Shown here: positions 21,545-23,103 of the stretch, in pieces | Layout: every line of letters begins with the position of its first letter | How positions within the stretch are numbered: the stretch's first letter is position 1 | Assembly: GCA_018882735.1 (NCBI GenBank) | Contig: VERH01000005.1 | Location: forward strand, 1 to 49,447 | Length of the DNA stretch: 49,447 nucleotides | Reading direction: 5' to 3' | From: Candidatus Nanopelagicaceae bacterium | GTDB lineage: Bacteria > Actinomycetota > Actinomycetes > Nanopelagicales > Nanopelagicaceae | Translations under genes and position numbers: made by a program | Notes under the pieces: model-generated | Databases searched by the model: none | The model's input: only the letters and a program-made list of their open reading frames with translations | Told to the model about the DNA's origin: nothing

Positions 21545-21955
21545 GTGAGCGCTCGCTCTAAAGCGCGAAAGGCTGCGCTGGATTTTCTCTACGAAGGCGA
21601 TATACGAGGAAAGTCAGCCGCTTCGATTCTTGGGATTAGAAAGTCAGAGTTGGACTATCTCATTCGAGAGTACACGGAGCTTCTTGTCAATGGCGTCGAA
21701 AGTAAGCGAAGTCGGATTGATGAGATCATTTCGATGCGAGCAAAAGATTGGGATCTCGATCGAATGCCGGTCGTAGACCGTAACATCCTCAGAGTCGGTA
21801 CTTTTGAATTGCTCTGGGGGGAGCAAATACCCGAAGAGGTTGCAATCTCGGAATCAGTAGAGCTCGCTAAGACGCTCTCAACTGAAGATTCAGCGACATA
21901 TATAAATGGAGTTCTAGCCTCTATCCGCGAGATTAAGAAAGACTTATCGCTTTAA
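21545..21955 (+). CDS. nusB: Transcription antitermination factor NusB
   Basis: NusB binds boxA of rRNA leader transcripts with S10 and prevents premature termination. The 136-residue all-helical protein shows SKARKAALDFLYEGDIRG at the N-terminus and the diagnostic C-terminal VVDRNILRVGTFELLWGEQIPEEVAISESVELAK. The start is GTG immediately after the efp TAA, preferred because it opens the family-like MSARSKARKAAL. Its last 12 bases overlap the 3' end of the convergent bldD gene. Confidence 0.93.
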   Translation: MSARSKARKAALDFLYEGDIRGKSAASILGIRKSELDYLIREYTELLVNGVESKRSRIDEIISMRAKDWDLDRMPVVDRNILRVGTFELLWGEQIPEEVAISESVELAKTLSTEDSATYINGVLASIREIKKDLSL

Positions 21956-22423
21956 GCGATCGCTTTGGAGCAAAAGATCTCTTAGACGGAGAGCCCCAAT
22001 AAGTTCTGATCTGCTCATATCAGTTAGAAATTGAAGATTATCCAGATCCTGTTTTCTAATACTTAAGACTTCTCCGTTTTGATCATTACGCATACTTGTG
22101 ATCCGTCCCGCTAATCTAGAGATAGTTCTACTCAGATCATCGGGAAGAGTTCGAGCCATAGCCAGCCGCTTAAGATCCAAAATGGTTTGCAAACTGTCAA
22201 CTTCACTACGTGCTACTCCGAGCTCTGAGAGATCTGCGCCGTAGAACTCACAGAGTTCAACCGCGCGCATCAAACTTAGATGCCTAGTGCCACGCTCGTA
22301 GGAGCCAACTACGACTGCCTTCCATTTTCCTCGGCTTTTAATCTCGACTTGCCTGAGGGTAAGTCCGGCAGCTACTCGAATCGCACGTAACCGGGCAAGT
22401 GATCGCTTGTAATTGGAATCCAT
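21944..22423 (-). CDS. bldD: BldD-family transcriptional regulator with c-di-GMP signature
   Basis: This 159-residue regulator has an N-terminal XRE-type helix-turn-helix (about residues 8-66) containing KWKAVVVGSYERGTR, nearly the same as Streptomyces BldD. In the C-terminal domain R112-x-D114, eight residues, then R123-x-x-D126 reproduces the RXD-X8-RXXD motif through which Streptomyces BldD binds tetrameric cyclic-di-GMP. In Streptomyces it represses development genes. Here, in a presumably unicellular plankter, the targets are unknown. AGCGGAG precedes the ATG. It is divergent from pyrR and convergent with nusB, and the shared 3' region holds the inverted repeat 21946-21960. Confidence 0.9.
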   Translation of the reverse strand: MDSNYKRSLARLRAIRVAAGLTLRQVEIKSRGKWKAVVVGSYERGTRHLSLMRAVELCEFYGADLSELGVARSEVDSLQTILDLKRLAMARTLPDDLSRTISRLAGRITSMRNDQNGEVLSIRKQDLDNLQFLTDMSRSELIGALRLRDLLLQSDRLKR

Positions 22424-22519
22424 AACGCTCCGCTCAAGAAACTAGTCGGGGTGAAGGAGGCGAGGCTAGGAGAATTTGCCCCGCTCGTATTGCGTTATAC
22501 ACAAGCCGAGCCGGTGCGC

Positions 22520-22543: not shown

Positions 22544-22559
22544 CCGTCCAGAGAGGCGG
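22544..22559 (+). promoter_or_regulatory. PyrR-binding RNA hairpin controlling pyr operon translation
   Basis: The RNA can form a 5-bp stem CCGUC/GGCGG capped by the hexaloop CAGAGA. The core GUCCAGAGAGG (22546-22556) equals the conserved PyrR recognition sequence first defined in Bacillus. No U-run terminator follows; instead the ribosome-binding site AAAGGAAG (about 22561-22567) lies directly after the stem, 14 bases before the pyrR ATG. This layout matches the translational repression described for mycobacterial PyrR rather than attenuation. UMP-bound PyrR would be expected to hold the hairpin and block initiation. The site is seen directly; the mode is inferred. Confidence 0.85.
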
Positions 22560-22572
22560 AAAAGGAAGTGTT

Positions 22573-23103
22573 ATGTCTATTGTTTTAGATCAAGCCGAGA
22601 TAGCCCGGGCACTTAAGCGCATTGCCCACGAAATTATTGAACGAAATAAAGGCGTCTCAAATTTAGTAATACTCGGAATCCCAACTCGTGGCTCATTCCT
22701 CGCCGCTCGTTTAACCACGATCCTCAGCTCTCTCGAAGGGGTTGAAATCCACTCAGGTTCTTTAGATACGACCATGTATCGAGATGATTTGAGAAACTCT
22801 GCGCCTCGTTCACTAGGAAAAACTGAGATTCCGCTTAGTGGCATTCACGATAAAGATGTGGTTTTAGTTGATGACGTTCTTTTCTCAGGGCGCACTATCC
22901 GCGCCGCTCTCGATGCCTTATCTGAACATGGAAGACCGAAGACCGTGCAGCTAGCTGTTCTTATCGATAGAGGACACCGCGAACTACCTATTAGGGCTGA
23001 TTACGTCGGCAAAAATTTACCAACTAGTCGAAGTGAACGGGTACGCGTATGTCTAACTGAAATTGACAACCTAGACGAAGTGAAGATTGAAGGACGTTCA
23101 TGA
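22573..23103 (+). CDS. pyrR: Bifunctional pyr operon regulator / uracil phosphoribosyltransferase PyrR
   Basis: PyrR binds pyr mRNA in response to UMP and has weak uracil phosphoribosyltransferase activity. The 176-residue PRTase fold has [16 protein letters not shown] near the N-terminus, the DTTMYRDDL hood segment and the PRPP loop [21 protein letters not shown]. Length is normal. Its target hairpin lies just upstream, so it autoregulates the whole operon. The stop overlaps pyrB (ATGA). Confidence 0.96.

Follow-up and report, generated by a model that had tools for sequence, protein, structure and literature searches.

A BldD orthologue with invariant c-di-GMP-reading residues in the streamlined planktonic Nanopelagicaceae

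BldD is discussed as a master regulator of sporulating actinomycetes. The bldD gene considered here belongs to a Candidatus Nanopelagicaceae bacterium (assembly GCA_018882735.1, of 1.23 Mb and 90% complete; contig VERH01000005.1, positions 1 to 49,447, this whole stretch of 49,447 nucleotides being called the window below), a host which is expected, like its group, not to sporulate. The locus raises the question of whether such a protein can still read c-di-GMP and, if so, what it would report. A literature search on c-di-GMP or BldD in the Nanopelagicaceae lineage found nothing relevant in the collection of papers covered. The reading that we consider likely is that the protein is a BldD orthologue working at its core as in Streptomyces, fed by one cyclase, and reporting the growth or membrane state of the cell.

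The identification of the gene product as BldD, proposed in a preliminary description of the locus, is borne out by domain matches to BldD structures at the level of both sequence and fold. At the N-terminus lies a helix-turn-helix domain whose homologue is the DNA-binding domain of BldD (2ewt, E=2e-17), and the helix-turn-helix signature that had been reported as kept aligns to that of 2ewt (Table 1). The C-domain aligns to 4oaz (E=5e-7), each motif residue falling on its counterpart, and is recognised by the Pfam family BldD-like_C (PF21179; 44.5 bits for a cut-off of 27). NCBIfam BldD is the sole family match in the NCBIfam library, at 121 bits, which lies under an equivalog cut-off of 250 bits that appears to have been set on close homologues. 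The AlphaFold model has a mean pLDDT of 83 and a pTM of 0.46, a low value attributed to a presumably flexible linker, and its best PDB matches in Foldseek are the BldD DNA-binding domain (4ob4 and 2ewt, TM 0.87-0.88 by target length) and complexes of the BldD C-domain with c-di-GMP (5khd, TM 0.88 by target length). The secondary structure predicted for the C-domain (E80-83, H84-90, H96-112, E119-122, H124-134, H138-147) follows the two beta-alpha-alpha repeats of the BldD-like_C fold. The gene neighbourhood is also shared with filamentous actinobacteria, by way of pyrR: of 75 filamentous relatives, 52 have a divergent pyrR within 1.5 kb of bldD and only four a convergent nusB. By sequence, the window protein thus reads as a vertically inherited BldD orthologue, an expected orthologue in an unexpected host.

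Table 1. Coordinates of the bldD locus in the window and of the c-di-GMP genes of the same genome
Feature	Sequence	Positions	Strand	Remarks
bldD ORF, 159 aa	window	21944-22423	minus	HTH domain about residues 1-70; C-domain about residues 80-147
KWKAVVVGSYERG, helix-turn-helix signature, residues 33-45	window	22289-22327	minus	alignment to 2ewt; common to Streptomyces BldD
Motif 1, R112-N-D114	window	22082-22090	minus	Streptomyces R114/D116; alignment and conservation; codons R112 22088-22090, D114 22082-22084
Motif 2, R123-K-Q-D126	window	22046-22057	minus	Streptomyces R125/D128; alignment and conservation; codons R123 22055-22057, D126 22046-22048
D128, equivalent of phosphate-contacting Streptomyces R130	window	22040-22042	minus	charge reversed
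nusB	window	21545-21955	plus	convergent with bldD, 12-base overlap with bldD end
pyrR	window	22573-23103	plus	divergent from bldD
TTATACACA, DnaA-box-like element in bldD-pyrR intergenic region	window	22495-22503	plus	only TTATNCACA in the 49-kb window
GTCCAGAGAGGCGG	window	22546-22559		just upstream of pyrR
Core cyclase	locus L296	3168-4538	plus	full-length, membrane-anchored GGDEF protein
Saccharopine-dehydrogenase-like gene	locus L296	4634-6067	plus	after core cyclase; Pfam
Short degenerate GGDEF protein	locus L297	3497-3940	plus	convergent with orn, overlapping
orn	locus L297	3929-4480	minus	convergent with short GGDEF gene, overlapping

In Streptomyces BldD, the ligand is bound by R114, D116, R125 and D128, and binding is abolished when either motif is mutated (PMC4151990). 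The preliminary description had placed an RXD-X8-RXXD motif at R112-x-D114 and R123-x-x-D126, offset by about two positions from Streptomyces, and both the residues and the offset are found exactly as described, the eight residues between the two halves being QNGEVLSI. The bare pattern is by itself weak evidence: R.D.{8}R..D arises in 1.5% of shuffles of the window protein, so that the claim must rest on homology. A chance motif is ruled out by the alignment to BldD C-domain structures and by the conservation across relatives.

All four motif residues are present in 200 of 200 BldDs (about 120 from Nanopelagicaceae and about 80 others, mostly filamentous), a sample drawn by similarity to a Nanopelagicaceae profile, which says little on more remote BldD-like proteins. 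Among 112 non-redundant Nanopelagicaceae BldDs, whose median pair identity is 51% in the DNA-binding domain and about 31% in the C-domain, strict invariance in the C-domain is confined to the columns of R112, D114, R123 and D126; G117 and N116 (the latter in 110 of 112) come next. The further nucleotide contacts of Streptomyces BldD, I110, N118 and S123 (PMC4151990), are kept in the window protein as I108, N116 and S121; position 121 is S or T in all 112 proteins and position 108 is I, L, V or F. The invariant and fully populated columns of the N-domain are R16, G40, Y42, E43, R44 and R47. Frequent loss of the four residues in close relatives, named beforehand as an outcome that would count against a c-di-GMP-binding BldD, is not seen, since all 20 readable congeneric C-domains keep the motif. 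Loss of the motif where a cyclase is missing is likewise not seen, as the BldDs of genomes without a GGDEF match (three of them, for example) keep it; the missing GGDEF matches beside an intact BldD can be explained by fragmentary metagenome-assembled genomes (MAGs).

Retention of the motif is a property of the whole BldD family, expected and not a local curiosity. Tschowri et al. found it equally strictly conserved among sporulating actinomycetes (PMC4151990), a strict conservation that now extends to streamlined plankton, where selection falls on precisely the guanine-reading residues. Such invariance in an otherwise so divergent domain is strong evidence, from the alignments, of selection for reading a guanine dinucleotide, and suggests that c-di-GMP reading is independent of sporulation.

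The contacts to the phosphates of c-di-GMP, which are made by K84 and R130 in Streptomyces BldD (PMC4151990), follow another course. All 75 filamentous relatives carry R at the R130 position, versus none of the 112 Nanopelagicaceae proteins, which have one K and usually E, S, T, D or A. At the K84 position, K or R is found in all 75 filamentous relatives as opposed to 58 of the 112, and the window protein has Q79. The K120 position is mostly E or Q in Nanopelagicaceae instead of K or R, and E in the window. Neither K84 nor R130 is thus kept by the window BldD, and these two residues are a detail of contact in Streptomyces and do not define membership of the family. Base reading would be retained and phosphate holding relaxed in Nanopelagicaceae BldD, and affinity or stoichiometry may differ from Streptomyces because these contacts are not maintained. 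One could go further and propose that the C-domain reads guanines without a tetramer cage, binding a dimer of c-di-GMP or some other guanine dinucleotide, at a changed affinity. The eroded phosphate contacts would fit this proposal, as would the available structures of Streptomyces BldD at an assembly intermediate with two nucleotides (5tzd, 5tzf, 5tzg), but all four base-reading residues are invariant, among them R112, the counterpart of a residue in contact with both nucleotide dimers of the tetramer, and we regard it as quite unlikely.

A reader of c-di-GMP supposes a source. The genome contains one full-length GGDEF protein (456 aa from the first ATG, 123 bits), with several hydrophobic segments and the intact GG(D/E)EF active-site sequence ARLGGDEFGAL. 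A GGDEF match is found in 22 of the 24 genomes of the genus and in 235 of 251 relatives, and all 58 cyclases read across the family have an intact active site. The absence of any cyclase, which would have spoken against the functional circuit suggested in the preliminary description, is therefore not observed, and the suggestion of a live c-di-GMP circuit holds as far as gene content can indicate. In many genera the cyclase adjoins a saccharopine-dehydrogenase-like gene (recognised by Pfam) and/or a Rieske-type-like gene (named from its sequence), and these recurring neighbours support the orthology of the cyclases. The saccharopine-dehydrogenase-like gene, which follows the cyclase as a pair in many Nanopelagicaceae, possibly encodes a homospermidine synthase. 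The genome also encodes a short degenerate GGDEF protein without active-site residues, similar to short GGDEF proteins of several congeners, and an oligoribonuclease (orn), an enzyme that clears pGpG in other bacteria.

No recognisable phosphodiesterase accompanies the cyclase in the genome. EAL domains are missing from all 24 congeners and occur in 12 of 251 relatives, HD-GYP domains are found in none of 121 relatives, and PilZ domains, sought as another effector, in none of 61 genomes. The EAL-bearing relatives mostly have genomes of 1.5-1.9 Mb, and several of them encode GGDEF-EAL composite proteins. As many of the genomes are incomplete MAGs, single absences carry little weight, and the firm part of this evidence is that phosphodiesterases are consistently missing from the complete genomes. 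The canonical I-site is moreover missing from 57 of the 58 cyclases read, and the one that has it is a larger composite protein. With a core cyclase devoid of an I-site, almost no EAL and no HD-GYP, the c-di-GMP circuit looks, on gene content, to be one-way. These same absences, extending to 239 of 251 family members for EAL, could mean that c-di-GMP is always high and that BldD is a permanently loaded housekeeping repressor, for which c-di-GMP would be a structural cofactor and no switch would exist. This is an unlikely alternative: the N-terminal membrane region of the cyclase is conserved, with 6-8 predicted hydrophobic segments, which suggests regulated synthesis, and a hydrolase of unknown type is possible.

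We return to a BldD that most likely works at its core as in Streptomyces. R112, D114, R123 and D126 of two C-domains would read the guanines of c-di-GMP, an oligomer of which would bridge two BldD subunits, and the bridged dimer would then bind and repress promoters. The single membrane-anchored GGDEF cyclase, which lacks an I-site, would supply the input. Because neither EAL nor HD-GYP turns up in most members of the family, the c-di-GMP level would probably be set by the rate of synthesis and by dilution through growth, or else by an unknown hydrolase. BldD would in this way report growth or membrane state and not development.

The bldD gene is not present everywhere. In several genera no BldD match is obtained although the pyrR locus is assembled, and there, in nine genomes for example, bldD is cleanly gone and nusB stands directly before pyrR. 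Nearly all bldD-deleted relatives keep a GGDEF protein, with an intact cyclase wherever one was read; a cyclase is also kept by ten high-quality genomes in which BldD has no match. It follows that there is at least one further use or target of c-di-GMP, and that BldD is dispensable in some niches. A statistical coupling between the presence of BldD and that of the cyclase was looked for and rejected (Fisher p=0.35). The deletions might be taken to mean that BldD is a relic in the course of being lost, but where present it is intact, with ligand residues and key DNA-domain residues strictly invariant over deep divergence, and a relic is accordingly very hard to believe in.

The region between bldD and pyrR differs from that of filamentous relatives. 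Upstream of bldD, 32 of 75 filamentous relatives have a canonical BldD box (TNACN5GTNA; 1.1% in shuffles) versus two of 120 Nanopelagicaceae, which is at chance level (3.1% in shuffles). None is present near bldD in the window, and nine BldD boxes elsewhere in the window are discounted, their number being at chance level. In its place, 91 of 120 Nanopelagicaceae have a TGTGGATA-like element (1.8% in shuffles), which none of the 75 others has. In 69 of about 100 cases this element starts 47-49 bases before an ATG that coincides with the bldD start or is close to it. Its conserved form is TGTGGATA / TTATNCACA (loci L003-L021, L198-L257). In the window, TTATACACA sits 80 bases from the bldD ATG, as compared with about 48 in most relatives. 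The element at the usual 47-49-base spacing, before TANNNT and an ATG, occurs at 53 places in 61 genomes, 25 of them, by our reading of the coordinates, at bldD, and a TGTGGATA-like element is found in none of 11 nusB-pyrR spacers without bldD. Around dnaA, five complete genomes have further copies of the same word, TGTGGATAA, which suggests that the element is a DnaA box, and DnaA may bind this putative box upstream of bldD. BldD could then have been rewired to serve growth or the cell cycle, with a single cyclase, loss of c-di-GMP by dilution only, and control of bldD by DnaA through a conserved box replacing the BldD-box autorepression suggested for filamentous relatives; we mention this as a long shot. 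Closer to pyrR, GTCCAGAGAGGCGG resembles a PyrR-binding RNA loop, and a similar TCC..GAGGCGG precedes pyrR in the relatives read; an Rfam scan of the bldD-pyrR locus gave no match.

That the regulon must be different from that of Streptomyces, as had been asserted, is plausible, and it would be non-developmental: what passes for a developmental switch appears to have another purpose in a streamlined host. What seems new here is the one-way-looking circuit, the altered phosphate contacts, the deletions of bldD with the cyclase kept and the putatively replaced upstream element. One conserved cyclase, one known effector and no recognised phosphodiesterase make a minimal c-di-GMP system, in which one can test what BldD did ancestrally and how a signal is turned off without a phosphodiesterase.

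The closest known systems are the BldD proteins of Streptomyces venezuelae and S. coelicolor, with which the window protein shares the two-domain architecture, the RXD-X8-RXXD spacing, the helix-turn-helix signature and the C-domain fold, as well as the divergent pyrR that adjoins bldD in most filamentous relatives examined. It differs from them by a C-domain only about 40% identical, by the replacement of K84, R130 and K120 described above, by the residue after motif 1 (Y in Streptomyces, W in Nanopelagicaceae and Q in the window), by the missing BldD box upstream of bldD and by a host not known to sporulate. S. venezuelae moreover has ten chromosomal c-di-GMP turnover proteins (PMC6205966), whereas Nanopelagicaceae have a single core cyclase and lack a recognised phosphodiesterase. 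Another comparison is offered by the RsiG-WhiG switch, which responds to c-di-GMP and serves type IV pili in the unicellular Rubrobacter (PMC8325347). There too, a c-di-GMP regulator of Streptomyces development is put to other use in a unicellular actinobacterium, but through a different protein and a different ligand-binding motif, which makes it a parallel of the Nanopelagicaceae BldD and not a relative.
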